Shown here: in pieces, positions 6,642 to 26,066 of the stretch
Numbering within the stretch: the first letter of the stretch is position 1
Layout of the letters: each line of letters opens with the position of its first letter
NCBI GenBank assembly: GCA_944326015.1
Contig: CALVCJ010000018.1
Location: 1-34,739 of the forward strand
From: Candidatus Gastranaerophilales bacterium
Lineage (GTDB): Bacteria > Cyanobacteriota > Vampirovibrionia > Gastranaerophilales > Gastranaerophilaceae
Direction: 5' to 3'
Length of the DNA stretch: 34,739 nucleotides
Notes under the pieces: generated by a model
Databases searched by the model: none
Seen by the model: the letters and a program-made list of their open reading frames with translations, nothing else
Told to the model about the DNA's origin: nothing
Position numbers and translations under genes: made by a program

Positions 6642-6671
6642 TTGCATAATTCGGAGAAAATGTGGTATAAT
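6642..6671 (+). promoter_or_regulatory. Sigma-70 promoter of the Fic gene
   Basis: TTGCAT (6642-6647), 18-nt spacer, TATAAT (6666-6671) preceded by TG one base earlier, an extended -10. Transcription would begin near 6678, which rules out the upstream TTG at 6642 as the start codon. Confidence 0.65.
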
Positions 6672-6695
6672 ATCCGTATAATATTCGGAGAAAAC

Positions 6696-7793
6696 ATGAG
6701 ATATATCTATCAAAATGCAGATTGGCACAGCTTTAGATGGTGCGGAGAAAAAATTCAGAATTTATTGTTAGAAATCAAAAAATCACAAGGGTATTTACTT
6801 GGTAAAATGGATTCTCTTGGTTTTGATGTCAAAAATAATGCACTATTACAGGTTTTGACAGAAAACATTATTAAATCATCTGAAATAGAAGGCCAAATTT
6901 TAGATAAACATTTGGTTCGTTCATCTATTGCAAGACGACTTGGCATTGACATTGGCGGCGAAACACCTGTATCAAGAGATATTGAGGGTGTTGTAGAAAT
7001 GATGCTTGATGCAACTCAAAATTATCCCTCAGAAATGACAAAGGATAGACTTATAGGATGGCACGCAGCACTTTTCCCGACAGGTTACAGCGGTATGTAT
7101 AAAATCAATGTCGGAGGATACAGGACTGACGAACTTGGACCGATGCAGGTTATTTCAGGTTATGAGGGAAAAGAGAAAATTCATTATGAAGCACCAAAAG
7201 CCGGATTACTTGAAGGAGAGATGAATGAACTCATCAACTATATTAATACGGATAAAGAAACAGATTTTCTAATTCAAGCCGGCATTGTGCATCTATGGTT
7301 TGTAATTTTACACCCTTTTGATGACGGAAACGGAAGAATTGCAAGAGCCTTAACGGATATGATTCTTGCAAGAAGTGATGACAGCAAATTCCGTTTTTAT
7401 TCAATGTCCTCACAAATTCAGAAAAACAGAAAAAGCTATTATGAAGTTTTGGAAAAAACTCAAAAAGGTTCAATGGATATAACAAATTGGCTATTATGGT
7501 TTTTGGAAAATCTTCTTATTGCTATTCAATCAAACGGTGAAATTACGGATAAAGTTTTACAAAAAGCCGAATTCTGGCAGAAAAATTCTAATTTAGTTTT
7601 TAACGAAAGACAAATTAAAGTTCTAAATCGGTTTATGGATAATTTTGAAGGTAATCTTACAACAACAAAGTGGGCAAAAATGTGTAACTGCTCACAAGAT
7701 ACCGCAAATTTGGATATTAACGACTTAATAGATAAGAAAATACTGAAGAAAACAGGCAAAGGGCGGGCTACACATTATCTTTTGCGTAAATAA
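6696..7793 (+). CDS. Fic-domain AMP-transferase with winged helix
   Basis: 365 residues from the ATG at 6696, which has GGAG 5 nt before it. Fic proteins usually transfer AMP from ATP to hydroxyl groups on target proteins. The N-terminus looks like DUF4172 (WHSFRWCGEKIQ). The self-inhibitory motif SSEIEG (about residues 60-65) fits [ST]xxxE[GN] of class II Fic proteins. The catalytic motif HPFDDGNGRIAR is complete (about 205-216), with His as base and Arg for phosphate contact. The C-terminus (TTTKWAKMCNCSQDTANLDINDL) is a winged helix, so the protein may bind DNA. The enzyme appears intact. It ends exactly where the convergent AAA+ ATPase gene ends (7793/7794). Confidence 0.93.
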   Translation: MRYIYQNADWHSFRWCGEKIQNLLLEIKKSQGYLLGKMDSLGFDVKNNALLQVLTENIIKSSEIEGQILDKHLVRSSIARRLGIDIGGETPVSRDIEGVVEMMLDATQNYPSEMTKDRLIGWHAALFPTGYSGMYKINVGGYRTDELGPMQVISGYEGKEKIHYEAPKAGLLEGEMNELINYINTDKETDFLIQAGIVHLWFVILHPFDDGNGRIARALTDMILARSDDSKFRFYSMSSQIQKNRKSYYEVLEKTQKGSMDITNWLLWFLENLLIAIQSNGEITDKVLQKAEFWQKNSNLVFNERQIKVLNRFMDNFEGNLTTTKWAKMCNCSQDTANLDINDLIDKKILKKTGKGRATHYLLRK

Positions 7794-9848
7794 CTAAAAC
7801 CCCACAGAATTCTGCAACTCTTTAGACTTTTTGACCCTAACTTCATCTTCAAGCATCTTGGGAAGTTCGTCTAAATCAGTTATACATAAGAAATCAGCTT
7901 TCTTTTTCACTGTTGCAAAATCGCCGGCAGTCAAGCCTTTTATACTTACATCCGCATTTTTAATCCCGAAAAAGTGGTCAAACGCTGTGTTTACCTGCTC
8001 TTTTGTCATAAAATCAAATTTGATTTTAAACGTAAACCGCCTCAAACTAGCTTCATCAAGCGTGTCAAGCAAATTCGTCGTACATACAAACGGGTATTCG
8101 TGAGCTTCCATCCACGTCAGCATCTCATTCACCTGTGAGATTTCCCAGTTTCTTACGGCATTACTTCGGTTTTGCAAAAATGAATCTGCCTCGTCAAAAA
8201 TCAACATTGCTTTTTTCGATTTGGCTTCAGCGAATGCATCTGCAATATTTTGTTCAGTTTCGCCGACGTATTTTGAAATCAAATCACTTGCACGTTTCAT
8301 TATTACTTCAACCCTGAGTTCTTTGGCCAAATATCTTGCATACAAACTTTTTCCGGTTCCGGGTTCGCCATAAAGACATAAGGAAAAATTCAATTTCCCG
8401 CAAGTTTTTATTTTTGCGGTCAAATCCTTTATATCCAAATCCGTATTTACGAGATTGTCATTATATTCTTTCATTTCAAACTCTTTCTTCTTTTTAACAT
8501 TTTTCTTTTTAGTCGCAACTTTTGCAACATTTTCAACAAAGATCTCAAAATCATCCTGATAACCGTTAATAAGTTTTGTTGTCTTAACAGCATTTGTAAT
8601 CAATGACGGCGGGATTTCGTAATTTTTGTTTAATTCCACAAGTTTTTTGTTATCTATTTTAAATTTGTTTTTGCGAATAACCCGTTTCCAAATATTCAGG
8701 CGGATGTCATCTGTCAATTTTTCAAACTCGACAGTATAAGTCATTCTACGCAAAAACGCCGGATCAACATCATAAATATTATTTGTCGTCCAGAAAATCG
8801 GAATAGGTGTTTCTTCAATCAGCGTGTTCAGGTAAGCCTTCGATGCACTCCCAAATTCAGTAAATCCTCTGTTCATAACATCTTCAGCTTCATCAAACAA
8901 CAGGCATGAGTTTGAGGATTTTGAAAGGATTGTTTGTTTTGATGATAAATCGCTCAGTCGGTCTTTTCTTGAGGCTTCTTTGTCCATAAATTCTGCGGAA
9001 ACTAAATACATATCACATTTTGCTTTGTTTGCGATAAGTTTCGCAAACTGGGTTTTGCCTGTTCCGACAGAACCGTAAAGCAGAATATTTATTCCTTTAG
9101 CGTGGTTTTTAATCGCTGAAGTCAAGATATTTAAAGCAATATTCTGCTCTTTTGTCAAATGCTCAAAATCTTTCCAATTAAGTTCAGTCTTTTGGCTCTT
9201 ACCAAGCAGAAGATTTTTAATCTGGTTTTTTGTTTTAATTTCCGGATTGCCAAATACTTCAAGAATTTTACTATTCAAAACGAATTTACTATCGTTGATT
9301 CCCTGTTTTATAAACACCCCTTTTTTAAATAATTCTTTTTTTATTCGGTTCAATGTCCAAATTTTTAATTCCAATACTTGAATTCCAAAAATTTCAAATT
9401 CCTCATATAAAAAACCATCAAAATATTTATGGAGTTCGTCAACACAACGATTGATAACTTTAAATATGTAAAATGAAACTATTTCTTGTTCTATACCATT
9501 TAAATTATATAAATTTGAAACAAATTCAATTTTATTCTTGAGTGAAGATTTTTTATATGTCAACTTTTCCAATTTGGCAATGATAATTTGTTTTAAGGTG
9601 CTTCTAAAATTTAGTTCTTCATTGTAATCTAAATACTCGTGATATTTAGGACACTTACTTCTGGGTAAATCCAGCATACTAATTAGATCTCTGTAAAAAA
9701 AGCTAAATTCACTTTTGTTGATATTAAAGTTGTCAATTAGTTTTATCAAATATCGACATAACACAGCACATTCAAAGGCTGAACATTTCGAGCGTCCTTT
9801 AAGTTTATCATTTAATTTATCATAATTTTCTATCAATTTATTAACCAT
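7794..9848 (-). CDS. Double-AAA+ ATPase, CDC48/Vps4-like
   Basis: 684 residues with two AAA+ modules. Residues 1 to about 225 are a helical region I do not recognise. Module 1 has Walker A GSVGTGKT (about 257-264), Walker B LLFDEAED (about 313) and LRRMTYTVEF after it. A Lys-rich linker (KKKNVKKKKEF) leads to module 2 with Walker A GEPGTGKS (about 492), KYVGETEQNI, Walker B MLIFDEADSFL (about 545) and LRRFTFKIKF. Both Walker A and B sets are complete, so both modules may bind and hydrolyse ATP, probably as a ring that remodels protein. The likely substrate is unknown; the shared operator (site 4 at 9876-9905) ties it to the FtsZ-like, WYL and RtcB genes. No neighbour follows it on the same strand within 2 kb. 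Confidence 0.88.
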   Translation of the reverse strand: MVNKLIENYDKLNDKLKGRSKCSAFECAVLCRYLIKLIDNFNINKSEFSFFYRDLISMLDLPRSKCPKYHEYLDYNEELNFRSTLKQIIIAKLEKLTYKKSSLKNKIEFVSNLYNLNGIEQEIVSFYIFKVINRCVDELHKYFDGFLYEEFEIFGIQVLELKIWTLNRIKKELFKKGVFIKQGINDSKFVLNSKILEVFGNPEIKTKNQIKNLLLGKSQKTELNWKDFEHLTKEQNIALNILTSAIKNHAKGINILLYGSVGTGKTQFAKLIANKAKCDMYLVSAEFMDKEASRKDRLSDLSSKQTILSKSSNSCLLFDEAEDVMNRGFTEFGSASKAYLNTLIEETPIPIFWTTNNIYDVDPAFLRRMTYTVEFEKLTDDIRLNIWKRVIRKNKFKIDNKKLVELNKNYEIPPSLITNAVKTTKLINGYQDDFEIFVENVAKVATKKKNVKKKKEFEMKEYNDNLVNTDLDIKDLTAKIKTCGKLNFSLCLYGEPGTGKSLYARYLAKELRVEVIMKRASDLISKYVGETEQNIADAFAEAKSKKAMLIFDEADSFLQNRSNAVRNWEISQVNEMLTWMEAHEYPFVCTTNLLDTLDEASLRRFTFKIKFDFMTKEQVNTAFDHFFGIKNADVSIKGLTAGDFATVKKKADFLCITDLDELPKMLEDEVRVKKSKELQNSVGF

Positions 9849-10040: not shown

Positions 10041-13000
10041 ATGAAATGTAATAATTGTGGTAAAGATATAACTAATGATTCAAAATTTTGTGAATATTGT
10101 GGGGTTAAAATAGAATATTCTGAAAAACTTGCGAAAAACAATTCTCATAAAGCTGAACTTGAACAAAAACAAGAAAAAAGTCTTGATAGACGTATATACA
10201 AGTGGAAAGAAAAATTAATTGATTTATCTAAACGTAACAGGCTTCTAAGTTTTAAATTTTCCAAATTTTCTACTATTCGTATTATTGATGAACAACCTCC
10301 GGAAGTATATCGGGCTTTGGTCCAAAATCTGCAAACAATGGAATTTTTACCAGTTAAAGTCAATGATTCTGAAATCTCGGAAGAAGAAAAGAAATCATTA
10401 GAAGAACTTAATGAGGGAATTGAATTTAAGATACAAGAGTTTAAAGAGTATGAAATTGATAACCTTGAAAAGAAGCATCTTGATAAATATTTACAAACAA
10501 AACTCTCTGAAACAGATTTGAATAAAGCACTTGGTAAGATTAGTGCAACTGCAAAATCTACAAATGATGATTTAGGTTATAATGTATTGTTTTTAACTTT
10601 AGGTAGTATAATCTGGTATGAAGCTGATAATTCCGATGAAAAACTTGAAGCCCCTTTGATACTTATTCCAATCGAGATAAAAAGAAAAAGTATTGGACAG
10701 CCTTATACAATTAAATATAATGAAGATTCCATCATCTTAAATCCGGCTTTAACCTTAAAGTTAAAGCGTGATTTTGGAATTAATCTTGAAGATATCCATT
10801 TTGATGAAGACGGGATAAATCCTATTGAGATTTTCTCGAAAGTACAAGAAAAAATAAAACAACAATCAAGATGGAAACTTCTAAATAATATATATATAGG
10901 GCTTTTTTCTTTTGCAAAATTTGTGATGTATAAAGATATTGACACCTATCAAGCTTTAATTAAGTGTAACGATTTAGTAAAAACCATCTGTGGTTTGAAT
11001 GAGGAAAAACAGGTTTCAACGGATGCTATATGTCCGTTAGCAGAATTAGATGAAAGAGTAAAACCTCAAAATACTTACCAAATTTTAGATGCGGATTCTT
11101 CACAGCAGCAGGCAATTCAAGTAGTAAAGCAAGGGAATAATCTTGTAATTGAAGGACCTCCAGGGACAGGAAAAAGTCAAACTATTGCCAATATTATTGC
11201 AGAATTATTATCCCAAAATAAAAGGGTTTTATTTGTAAGTCAAAAAATTGCAGCTTTAGATGTTGTAAAAAGCAGGTTAGATAAAAATGGTCTTGCACCA
11301 TTTTGTCTTGAATTGCACAGTAATAAGACAAACAGAAAAAGAGTTATTGATGAATTAAAAAATACACTTGAATATAACTATACTGGAGATTACGATGAAG
11401 GATCATTATCTAAATTAGCATCTGATATAAAATCATTGAAAACATATACTAATGAATTACATACTCCGGTTGGAGTATTAAATTATAAACCTTTTGATGC
11501 AATTGGAACAGTTTTACATAATTCTTCAATCCCCGATTTTGAATATATTTTTACTGATTATAATAATTGGAATTTAGAAAAATTTTCCTACTGTAAAAAC
11601 TTGTTTAAAGATATAAAAGAAATTTTACAAAGGTTGGGAAATCCACAACTTTTCCCTTGGTATGGATGTGAAATTCGGGATATTGAATTTGAAGAAAAAA
11701 TTCAACTAAAAAAACATTTAAAAAGTTTTTTAGATACCCTTGATAATTTAACTAAAAATATAAGAGAGTTACAAGAGTATCTTTTAACAAAAAATATTGT
11801 TAAACTTTCACAAATTCAAAATTTGATTGCTATTGCCAATATAGTTTTACAAATACCGAATTCCGCACTTGATAATATTGCTGAAAATAATACAAAAATG
11901 GCTAATGATATTAAGCTAATTTGCAATACTGTTAAACAATTTAATATTTATAAAAACAGAATCAGAGACAAATATAATTTAGGGATTTTAAATGAAGACA
12001 TTGAAAATCTGATACAAAAATTTTCAATATACAGGGACAAATTTTTCTCAAGAATTTCATTTAAATTTTATAGAGATTGTAAATTTATAAAAACATATTA
12101 TACGAATAATTATAAACCAAATCTTGATGAATTGGTTAACGATTTAAATAATATTAAAGAACTGAAAAACTGGATAGAAAAATTGGAAGCATGCGATACT
12201 GTTGCAACTGATTTATACGATAATGTTTGGGATAAAAACAATCCGAATGAAAACAATATTAAAAACAAGAGTCAATATTTATTAAAATTTAAAGAACTTA
12301 TAGAATCTGGAAAGTATTTCAATGGAGATATTCTTACTAAATTAAATTCTGAAGGAATAAATTATGATAAAATTCAAAATCTTCTTCAAAAAATTACAAA
12401 TTTTAGCAATGATTTAAAAATATATTTTGATACAATAAGCAAACTTACCAAACTGGATTGCACGAAAGCTTTTTCACATAACTATGAGGAAGTTGCATTC
12501 CTAAAATTAAAAGAAAAAATATCCGCTATTTTAGGTTCTTCGGAAGATTTAACTTTATGGTTTAAATATCTAAACATCTATGATAAGATAATTGATACAG
12601 ATCTTTTAGAATTTTTCAATAAATGTATAGAATTCAACATTCCGATAGAAGAATATGATAAAGCTTTTGAAACGCAATTCTTAAGAATATGGCTAAACGG
12701 TTATGTATTCAAAAATATACCAAGTTTAAAAGTTTTTAATTCTTTGGATCAGAATAATCTTGTGAAAGAATTTAAATATCTTGATAAAAATCAAATAGAA
12801 TCTGCAAAGGTGCGATTAATATCAAAACTTGTATCTAATGCTATGCTTGCAAAAGAAGAATTCAATAAAGAAACCAACGAGTTAAAACGATTTAGTAAAC
12901 TTCAAAAATTCAGAAAATCTTTAAGACAAATGGTAAAAAGCATACCACATTTATTTTTAGCATTAAAACCATGTCTGATGATGAGTCCCTCAACTGTTGC

Positions 13001-14309
13001 ACAATTACTTGACCCTGAAGTTTTTAAATTTGATGTTGTAATATTTGATGAAGCAAGTCAATTAACAACAGAAGATTGTATCGGTTCAATCATAAGAGGC
13101 GAAAAGCTTGTTGTTGCAGGTGATACAAAACAATTGCCTCCAACATCCTTCTTTAAAACAGTAGTCGACAGTGATGATGAGGAGGTTGAAGATGAAGATA
13201 CAGACAATAACAATGAGTCTGAAAGAGTTGACTTGGATAGTATTTTAGATGAATGTACAACGTCAGGTTTTCCTCAATGTATGCTTAAATGGCACTATAG
13301 AAGCAAACACGAGTATTTAATTGCATTTTCAAACAAACATTTATATCAGGAATTATATACTTTTCCAAGCTGTATTGAAGATAGTGAAACTTTAGGAATA
13401 AAATTCTTCTATCACGAACCAACGGATACGACAAAAGAAAATAAGCGTTTAGAAGAAGCTCAGATTGTTGCTAAAGCTGTTATGCAACATGCTAAAAAAC
13501 ATCCTGATTTATCCTTGGGTGTGGCAACATTGAATATTAAACAAAAAGGCCTTATAGAAGCCGAAATTGAAAAATTAAGAGAACAAGATCCAAGTTGTGA
13601 AGACTTTTTCAGTGATAACAAATCTGAATACTTTTTTGTAAAAAACTTAGAATCTATTCAGGGAGATGAAAGAGACGTTATTATGATTAGCGTTGGGTAT
13701 TTTAAAAATCAAAACGGCACTCTTCCAATGAATTTTGGTCCAATTAATAAAGATGGTGGAGAAAGACGTTTAAATGTGCTTATTACCCGTGCTAGAAATA
13801 TGGTAGAAGTTTTCAGCGGAATTAAAGCATCTGATTTTAACATGGATAAGACAAATAAAAGAGGAGTACAGCTTCTTCAATGGTATTTAGATTTTGCAGA
13901 ACGGGGAGAAATTGCATTAAAACAAAGTATTACAAGCAGTGCGGATGATAGTTTTGATTCTCCTTTTGAAGAATCTGTATGTAATGCATTAAGAGAAAAA
14001 GGCTATTCCGTTAAATCACAGGTTGGTTGTTCTGGATACAAAATTGACTTAGCTATAAGAGACAAGGATAATCCTGGACACTTTTTATTAGGAATTGAAT
14101 GTGACGGAGCTGCGTATCATTCTTGTGCTACTGCAAGGGATAGAGATAGACTTAGACAGGAAGTTTTGGAAAGTTTAGGTTGGAAAATTTATAGAATATG
14201 GTCGACTGATTGGTTCAAAAATCCGCAAAAACAACTCGATAAACTGATAAATCACATAAATAGTATTGATACAGGAAAAAATTTAGTCGCAAGTGCAGAA
14301 GCAATTTAA
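10041..14309 (+). CDS. DUF4011/SF1 helicase with C-terminal nuclease domain
   Basis: 1422 residues. It starts with a zinc ribbon (Cys3, Cys6, Cys17, Cys20: CNNCG and CEYCG). A DUF4011-type segment follows (KWKEKLIDLSKRNRLLSFK). The SF1 helicase core has Walker A GPPGTGKSQTIANI (about 372), DEASQ (about 1002), GDTKQLPPTSFF, an acidic insert, YRSKHEYLIAFSN, ESIQGDERDVI (about 1203) and LNVLITRARN. The two halves are separated by about 600 Lys/Asn/Ile-rich residues. The C-terminus is a Vsr/DUF559-like endonuclease: KIDLAIRD, ECDGAAYH, RDRLRQEVLESLGW, RIWSTDWF. It resembles the single-protein helicase-nuclease antiphage factors listed as Hhe in defence catalogues (from memory). All motifs look intact. 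The next gene begins 11 nt downstream. Confidence 0.93.
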   Translation: MKCNNCGKDITNDSKFCEYCGVKIEYSEKLAKNNSHKAELEQKQEKSLDRRIYKWKEKLIDLSKRNRLLSFKFSKFSTIRIIDEQPPEVYRALVQNLQTMEFLPVKVNDSEISEEEKKSLEELNEGIEFKIQEFKEYEIDNLEKKHLDKYLQTKLSETDLNKALGKISATAKSTNDDLGYNVLFLTLGSIIWYEADNSDEKLEAPLILIPIEIKRKSIGQPYTIKYNEDSIILNPALTLKLKRDFGINLEDIHFDEDGINPIEIFSKVQEKIKQQSRWKLLNNIYIGLFSFAKFVMYKDIDTYQALIKCNDLVKTICGLNEEKQVSTDAICPLAELDERVKPQNTYQILDADSSQQQAIQVVKQGNNLVIEGPPGTGKSQTIANIIAELLSQNKRVLFVSQKIAALDVVKSRLDKNGLAPFCLELHSNKTNRKRVIDELKNTLEYNYTGDYDEGSLSKLASDIKSLKTYTNELHTPVGVLNYKPFDAIGTVLHNSSIPDFEYIFTDYNNWNLEKFSYCKNLFKDIKEILQRLGNPQLFPWYGCEIRDIEFEEKIQLKKHLKSFLDTLDNLTKNIRELQEYLLTKNIVKLSQIQNLIAIANIVLQIPNSALDNIAENNTKMANDIKLICNTVKQFNIYKNRIRDKYNLGILNEDIENLIQKFSIYRDKFFSRISFKFYRDCKFIKTYYTNNYKPNLDELVNDLNNIKELKNWIEKLEACDTVATDLYDNVWDKNNPNENNIKNKSQYLLKFKELIESGKYFNGDILTKLNSEGINYDKIQNLLQKITNFSNDLKIYFDTISKLTKLDCTKAFSHNYEEVAFLKLKEKISAILGSSEDLTLWFKYLNIYDKIIDTDLLEFFNKCIEFNIPIEEYDKAFETQFLRIWLNGYVFKNIPSLKVFNSLDQNNLVKEFKYLDKNQIESAKVRLISKLVSNAMLAKEEFNKETNELKRFSKLQKFRKSLRQMVKSIPHLFLALKPCLMMSPSTVAQLLDPEVFKFDVVIFDEASQLTTEDCIGSIIRGEKLVVAGDTKQLPPTSFFKTVVDSDDEEVEDEDTDNNNESERVDLDSILDECTTSGFPQCMLKWHYRSKHEYLIAFSNKHLYQELYTFPSCIEDSETLGIKFFYHEPTDTTKENKRLEEAQIVAKAVMQHAKKHPDLSLGVATLNIKQKGLIEAEIEKLREQDPSCEDFFSDNKSEYFFVKNLESIQGDERDVIMISVGYFKNQNGTLPMNFGPINKDGGERRLNVLITRARNMVEVFSGIKASDFNMDKTNKRGVQLLQWYLDFAERGEIALKQSITSSADDSFDSPFEESVCNALREKGYSVKSQVGCSGYKIDLAIRDKDNPGHFLLGIECDGAAYHSCATARDRDRLRQEVLESLGWKIYRIWSTDWFKNPQKQLDKLINHINSIDTGKNLVASAEAI

Positions 14310-17559: not shown

Positions 17560-17984
17560 CTATCTCAATTTATGCGGATAATCTTTAGGGATTTTCCAGT
17601 CTAATTTTTCTAAATAAGCAGTACAACGTTTCCCCTCACTTATACACAAAGAACGACAACGTGCTATACTGGTACACCAGTTAACACCATAAGGGAAAAA
17701 ATTACTTACTCTGCCATCTGTATAACTAGCAATATTTCTTTCAGTACATATCATATAATTAAATCTGTCCACTCCAAACTCGGTCCGTTATCAATTTCAC
17801 TGCGCCTGATTGCATCTGTAAATATTGAATAAAATTTTTTAAGCTTTACTTCTGTTGTCAAACGTCTATAGCTGTTAACCACCGCAGGCATTGTAAGAGC
17901 TGCAACTACACCTATAATTGCAAGAGTAATTAATACTTCCGCCAGCGTAAAGCCTGTAAGTTTTGAATTCTGAAACTTTAGCAT
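17560..17984 (-). pseudogene. Type IV prepilin-like protein, frame-disrupted
   Basis: From 17984 (AAGGAG 7 nt upstream) the frame reads MLKFQNSKLT and then the prepilin leader GFTLAEVLITLAIIGVVAA, which would be cleaved after Gly, followed by AIRRSEIDNGPSLEWT and a TGA at 17753-17751. A second frame (from 17772) reads NYMICTERNIASY, YGVNWCTSIARC and ends CTAYLEKLDWKIPKDYPHKL, a tail I recognise from memory in these prepilins. The two pieces together are about 140 residues, and the usual middle part is missing, so a frameshift and perhaps an internal deletion have occurred. It would have been an inner-membrane pilin or pseudopilin. Confidence 0.68.
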
Positions 17985-24783: not shown

Positions 24784-25919
24784 TTAAACATTTTTAGCAT
24801 TTTTAACTAAATTTTCACAATTTTCATTTGTTGCCCTCCAAAGCCCTTGCGCTTTCCTTTTTACGCGAGGAAATTGAGCTTCAAAACTAATTATTTCATC
24901 TTTAAATTTTTCATGATATATCCTTTCTTTATTTTAATAACTTCTCTTTTGAATAACCTTCAGTTACAAAATAGCTGTTACTAACTGTCCCATCAGTAAA
25001 ATAATTATTTGAATTTACAGTAACCTGCAAAGGGTTCCAAAAACTAACTTTCTTGCCATAAATATTATAAACAGGGTACCCTTTAAATGTATCTACCTGA
25101 GAAAAACTTTTTGAAATTTCTTCTTTTAAATCATTAAATGCTTTTGTGTCAAGAGCGTATATTTCTTTATTGGTGTCTGAACATATTGCTCTTAATTGAA
25201 TATAAGTTACATTAGGATATTTTGATAATTCTTTAATCATATTTAAAATATCATCTCGGTTGTATCTGTTAACAACTGTTGCAACCCGGACGTGCGCCCC
25301 GCTTGCCGGAATTATCTTTTCCCAATCAGGTATAATCTCAGTTCCTATTATTTTTTTATTTATTTGAGGATTAAAAGAATGAATAGAATAGGAAATACCT
25401 CCATTTAACGATGCCAAAACTTTATCCATCCCTTCCGGACGGTAATATCCATTTGTTCTAATTCCGACTTTAAATCCTTTATTTTTAAGAAAATCAATTA
25501 ATTCAGGCAGAAATTTATAAATAGCAGGATCAGTATTCATGCCGGTCAAATATAATTTTTTAATTCCCATTTCCTTAGTTTGATTTAAAAAAGATAAAAA
25601 ATTTTTCCACTTGCTAAAGTGTACACCTATCTGTGAAATACCACTTATACTCTTGCCAACCTTTTCTGAAATTTGTTTTAATTCATTCCCGATACAGAAA
25701 AAACATTTTAAATTACACTTACCCATTAAATTTATATTTGCGAATGATGGCAGCTCTCTGTTTCTATTTTTGTCAGATTTTGCAAATATCTCAAGCAAAT
25801 CCGAATTTATGTTTCTGGCTTGAAAAGTTCCCCCCCCCCGGTTTACATGTCTTTACATTTTTAACATTTTTTTCTGGATAGTTTTGGTTTGACAAATAAT
25901 CATAAATTTTAAGTAACAT
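24784..25919 (-). pseudogene. Radical SAM protein with G10 tract and possible 3' frameshift
   Basis: The intact core (24929-25798) reads LPSFANINLMGKCNLKCFFC with the CxxxCxxC iron-sulfur site, then GIKKLYLTGMNTDP, GFKVGIRTNGY and GISYSIHSFNP. An ATG at 25919 with AAAGGAAG upstream reads MLLKIYDYLSNQNYPEKNVK and reaches ten G on this strand (25830-25839). As written this runs out of frame and stops 13 codons after the tract. With nine or twelve G it joins the core frame (GTFQARNINSDLLEIFAK). At the other end, removing one A from AAAA near 24929 extends the protein to 24784 with NKERIYHEKFKDEII and FPRVKRKAQGLWRATNE. The core could also start at TTG 25798, but I see no ribosome site there. The substrate is unknown. 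Confidence 0.7.
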
Positions 25920-26066
25920 ACATACTTCCTTTCTTTTTTAATACAGCTGTATAAAAAAACAAAAAATTTTTTTTTTGCCATTAATGTTTACTTGAATTTT
26001 TCATTAAAAATTATCAGCATACACATAATATTTACTATTTTTTCAAATAAATATTGACACAAGTTG

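Follow-up and report, generated by a model that had tools for sequence, protein, structure and literature searches.

Near-fixed ten-guanine tracts in prepilin-like genes and a radical SAM gene of Gastranaerophilales: a candidate default-OFF switch system

Does a run of ten guanines in the 5' coding part of a radical SAM gene act as a phase-variable switch in a Gastranaerophilales bacterium? The question arises from an original prediction, made for a window of 34,739 nucleotides (the whole stretch of DNA that was analysed), that slipped-strand changes in the length of this run would turn the gene on and off. The run reads as C10 on the forward strand and as G10 on the reverse strand, which carries the gene (Table 1). 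It was confirmed at ten bases and, as had been claimed, is the only long G/C run present: no other run of at least seven G or C occurs in the window, and the four run matches listed there were overlapping copies of this single one.

The frame that starts at ATG 25919, five bases downstream of AGGAAG, reads MLLKIYDYLSNQNYPEKNVKNVKTCKPGGGNFSSQKHKFGFA*, enters the G run, and stops about 12 codons beyond it. The core is read in a different frame (...RGGGTFQARN...CNLKCFFC...), in which no ATG, GTG, or TTG was found from the upstream stop down to TTG 25798. The distance from 25919 to 25798 is 121 nt, and a tract of G9 or G12 would therefore join the ATG frame to the core; the claim that the core is out of frame at G10 and restored at these two lengths was thus borne out by frame reading. 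The gene needs −1 or +2 at its tract, unlike the +1 of the prepilin genes described below. TTG 25798 was rejected as a start, as it has no Shine-Dalgarno sequence and as the leader and the TFQ are conserved in orthologues; such a start is also unlikely because some 24 residues precede the conserved TFQ in the 54% orthologue from another family (G047). The predicted start at the ATG with its good ribosome site was upheld by a congener (G019), whose 93% orthologue keeps the leader, the Shine-Dalgarno sequence, and the ATG. As judged from these orthologues, translation most likely enters from upstream and crosses the tract.

Table 1. Features at the tract of the radical SAM gene
Feature	Positions	Strand	Basis
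Shine-Dalgarno AGGAAG	25925..25930	−	sequence; also present in the G019 orthologue
ATG (25919-25917) and leader MLLKIYDYLSNQNYPEKNVKNVKTCKP	25840..25919	−	frame reading; leader conserved in G019
G10 tract	25830..25839	−	sequence
3' flank AACTTTTCAAGCC, degenerate copy of the genus-wide motif	25817..25829	−	98th percentile of random sites
Radical SAM core, from TFQ just past the tract to the stop	24929..25828	−	Pfam match; dN/dS 0.137

Between our genome (G000) and G019, the leader differs by three synonymous and two nonsynonymous changes, and the core shows a dN of 0.035 and a dS of 0.258 (dN/dS, 0.137). Neither assembly has the gene in frame. The homologous tract of G019 is interrupted, reading GGTTGGGGGG, and its region lacks two bases relative to G000; a shift of +1 is needed there, as against −1 or +2 in G000. 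The two states would be interconvertible through a 2-nt change adjoining the tract (AA ahead of CTTTTCAAGC in G000). With its tract interrupted, the G019 copy could hardly switch, and the locus may thus be losing its switch. Only 3 of 383 genomes in the order were found to carry the gene, which is best read, from these comparisons, as an atypical member of the set of tract-bearing genes, out of frame yet selectively maintained.

The encoded protein belongs to the radical SAM superfamily by its match to PF04055 (35.5 bits; cut-off, 29.5) and its CxxxCxxC motif (CNLKCFFC). The product of 24929-25798 (−) bears a distant likeness to prokaryotic viperins and to MoaA, under the family cut-offs. Membership in the prokaryotic viperins (pVip) was not found with NF038283 (39.8 bits versus the NCBIfam cut-off of 180 bits); the PADLOC pVip match had an E value of 1.6e-14, PDB viperin matches were weak, and MoaA models scored similarly. 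A predicted structure, built from three sequences with a mean pLDDT of 55, was set aside. Elsewhere in the window, a possible defence cluster (10041-14309 and 6642-7793 on the + strand, 7794-9848 on the − strand) comprises a helicase/nuclease like PADLOC PDC-S37 (1348 bits, DUF4011 and MTES_1575), a SoFic-like Fic protein, and an IetA-like AAA ATPase, and a serine recombinase with Resolvase and Recombinase domains (3-866, −) reaches the window edge.

A search of the genome for other G/C tracts, which the original prediction had proposed as a check, yielded 79 runs of G8 or longer. First-order base statistics predict about 4.7 (about 0.17 for G10 or longer), and G runs are thus present far beyond chance. 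Most lie 20 to 45 nt downstream of the ATG of type IV prepilin-like genes; by the [GA]FTLAEVL cleavage/methylation motif, at least 35 of 77 tracts fall in the leaders of such genes. Prepilin matches numbered 87 in G000 and 103 in another congener (G007), versus 17 and 9 in the tract-poor genomes G013 and G027, whose prepilins mainly have short leaders and an in-frame ATG. Tracts number in the tens in most congeners, almost none in a few, and few in other families of the order. Loss of mismatch repair was rejected as their cause, as MutL was found in 31 of 33 congeners. Some genes carry a G10 in frame, namely, those for a GT2 glycosyltransferase, a group-1 glycosyltransferase, a GT-D enzyme, and an acyltransferase, and an in-frame G10 is retained in two species in a glycosyltransferase (L077/L348) and a large pilin (L083/L315). 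At prepilin loci such as L044, L048, and L063, 40 to 150 open repeat-like codons often stand between the tract and the pilin motif, and these inserts include repeated AFTLAE units and palindromic repeats. In the window itself, 17784-17951 (−) matches a prepilin N terminus in an 85-aa frame with no G-tract and is possibly a remnant.

The length of these tracts is nearly constant. Across the 33 congeners, 1,621 of 2,080 runs were exactly G10 and 150 exactly G11; the share of G10 was 169/179 in G026 and 73/78 in G007. Of 132 prepilins with ten G, 126 need exactly +1 and would be in frame at 11, in a set many of whose loci were fetched by the motif and also at exactly n=10, which makes the motif profile of that set partly circular. 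When prepilins of G000 and G019 were fetched by the G-run only, 69 of 75 were in frame at 11 (lengths 9, 10, and 11 in 4, 60, and 5 genes, respectively), and 60 of the 65 with n=10 need +1; among n=11 prepilins, 13 of 20 were in frame. The +1 offset is seen in each of the three leader-length classes modulo 3 and thus is not a single inherited frame. At n=10 the frame in use stops within five codons in 105/106 G-strand and 49/59 C-strand genes, and the third frame does so in only 41/106 G-strand genes. This combination of a constant offset and an adjacent stop in the unshifted frame was found in the prepilins only; the radical SAM gene departs from it in its offset and in its more distant stop. 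A genus-wide system of prepilins with a fixed G10, one base short, in dozens of genes per genome, is the larger finding.

The runs are also embedded in a common DNA motif, C-G10-C-N7-AGCT, whichever way they face relative to the gene. At sites selected by the G-run alone, AGCT was found 6 to 9 bases past the run in 40 of 77 of the genome's own tracts, versus 1/77 per control window, and C-strand sites scored 4.7 on the matrix of the G-strand sites versus −8.5 ± 5.8 for random sites. The radical SAM site matches the motif weakly. With both gene orientations represented, the motif would act, if at all, on DNA or via RNA complementarity. A protein-level origin of the AGCT was rejected on the basis of its different codon phases and both orientations, and a phage origin was rejected as the five IMG/VR matches lay on GC-richer contigs (0.48 to 0.66) in an unrelated context. 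Homology between paralogues often starts or stops at the tract, as in L064/L065 (97% from −5 to +220) and L052/L088 (97.6% from 0 to +83).

Tract length does differ at some loci. L063 and L080, in the same genome and 95.9% identical over 435 nt, have tracts of 10 and 11, and one locus (L052/L291) has 11 G and is in frame in G000 and has 10 and is out of frame in G019. A further congener, G002, has tract-bearing prepilins with lengths of 8 to 16, without the AGCT motif; among 32 of its genes, 6 are in frame, 19 are at "−1", and 7 are at "+1", a pattern which is closer to that expected for free slippage. The G002 lengths show that tract length changes within the genus and that assemblies can report values other than 10. 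A search for same-species strains for comparison found none, and G000 and G019 have few orthologous tracts in common.

Poly-G loci of Campylobacter, Helicobacter, and Neisseria likewise have a 5' G/C homopolymer and frame-dependent ON/OFF expression of surface structures and glycan enzymes. Their tracts cover a wide range of lengths, and the ON length is gene specific. The present tracts differ in being mostly exactly 10, in a prepilin ON length that is almost always 11, and in conserved flanks; G002 resembles the classical kind. The closest precedent is a G-tract switch in the sortase-pilus genes bbr_0113 and bbr_1889 of Bifidobacterium breve (Penno et al. 2022, PMC9187656), a gut commensal in which the same architecture is an experimentally studied replication-slippage switch: a G-tract lying within the 5' portion of a pilus gene that is out of frame by default, a short upstream open reading frame ending near the tract, and ON/OFF switching proposed to occur by slippage. 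There, G10 made up 93.4% of a G10 pilus tract, and strong heterogeneity was seen at a G11 tract. B. breve belongs to another phylum and has sortase pili rather than type IV prepilins, in one or two clusters per genome, and the available text does not describe the C-G10-C-N7-AGCT element, a C-strand class, or a fixed length (PMC9187656). On a contig of Bifidobacterium callitrichidarum (L152), six consecutive secreted-protein genes each have an ATG, 5 to 7 codons, and a G9 or G10 run with GC before and CTT or CTC after it, and the five judgeable genes come into frame at 11 (or 8), an arrangement convergent with the Gastranaerophilales design. Searches of the open-access literature turned up no description of phase variation or of G-tracts for either Gastranaerophilales or Melainabacteria.

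We hold, at slightly better than even odds (about 0.55), that the G10 of the radical SAM gene is one of some 80 tracts which form a DNA-level ON/OFF switch system with OFF as the default; the fixed-G10 set is probably an inherited switch resting at OFF. Most of these tracts lie a few codons past the start of a gene, mainly one for a type IV prepilin-like surface protein, but also those for glycan enzymes and the radical SAM gene. In a prepilin gene with G10, one base short, translation would halt just past the tract (OFF); a rare insertion during replication would give G11 and fuse leader and core (ON), and loss of the inserted base would restore G10 and reset the gene to OFF. The radical SAM gene would follow the same plan but need G9 or G12, perhaps owing to the 2-nt change beside its tract. 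If the behavior seen in B. breve holds here, G11 may be unstable and return to the steadier G10, which would explain why the ON length is 11 and not 9. That slippage switches these genes in cells, that the switch resets itself to OFF, and that it brings any benefit are points that we infer.

Several observations weigh against a slippage switch. The near-fixed length of 10, in genomes that mostly retain MutL, is unlike known contingency loci; the single common +1 offset is not a prediction of free slippage; the orientation-symmetric motif is left unexplained; and, in G019, the run in the radical SAM gene is broken. The original prediction thus stood in part. The many tracts in the genome, including those in surface-glycan enzyme genes, and the purifying selection on the core favor it; the free variation in length that it implied was not what we found, most congeners' tracts being strikingly fixed at 10. 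For the radical SAM gene itself, a phase-variable switch is plausible from the sequence.

A less likely possibility is a dedicated sequence-specific system of Gastranaerophilales, in which the symmetric element, set at exactly ten G/C, would keep dozens of prepilin genes one base out of frame and the missing base would be gained actively, by templated recombination, site-directed insertion, or programmed RNA polymerase slippage, and not by random replication slippage. Programmed recoding, in which RNA polymerase slips by +1 or the ribosome by −1 at a fixed G10/C10 so that full-length protein is made steadily in small amounts from unchanged DNA, is kept in contention by the fixed length, the common offset found in every leader phase and in G- and C-run genes alike, and the adjacent stop in the unshifted frame; cores and leaders are also conserved. 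It shares with programmed slippage and −1 frameshifting (insertion sequence elements, dnaX) a slippery run of fixed length and, after it, a stop in the unshifted frame, but it would use a G or C run and not an A/T run, of which an example of programmed transcriptional slippage has been described (PMC1088944). The in-frame glycosyltransferase and large-pilin genes, which keep the same G10 where slippage would hurt, argue against a primarily frameshifting role; moreover, the motif is identical DNA in both orientations and so differs in position relative to the direction of transcription, the radical SAM gene calls for −1 or +2, and G002 has varied lengths and mixed frames. We therefore consider recoding unlikely.

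Decidedly less probable is a recombination site, with the motif as a module boundary at which prepilin leaders and cores are exchanged, by gene conversion or a site-specific enzyme, and conversion holding the length at 10. Such a function would be compatible with the mosaic paralogues and with a motif that is conserved whichever way it faces, but leaders occur in three phases modulo 3, each fitted to its core, and free exchange would spoil the uniform offset; no recombinase was linked to the sites, and duplication with divergence accounts for part of the mosaic. Decay of the radical SAM gene, and of many prepilins, into frameshifted pseudogenes would fit the rarity of the radical SAM gene and its different defects in two species, yet its core is one long open frame whose dN/dS speaks against a plain pseudogene, and decay could not produce an identical offset in nearly all n=10 prepilins, making this reading very improbable. 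Least credible of all is an assembly artefact, with real lengths mostly 11 called as 10: G-tract annotations can err, as in B. breve (annotated G11, majority G12; PMC9187656), but lengths of 11 were called elsewhere, mostly in frame, in-frame G10 genes occur within the same assemblies, G002 shows other lengths, and several independent assemblies concur.

If default-OFF switching is true, pilus-type genes would lie silent by the tens in the genome of each of these gut bacteria, all governed by a single kind of switch, a scale that bears comparison with what specialised pathogens carry. Because the offset is uniformly one base, ON and OFF states could be called straight from metagenomic reads, and the presence in one genus of genomes with a fixed G10 and of G002 would make the evolution of tract stability testable.
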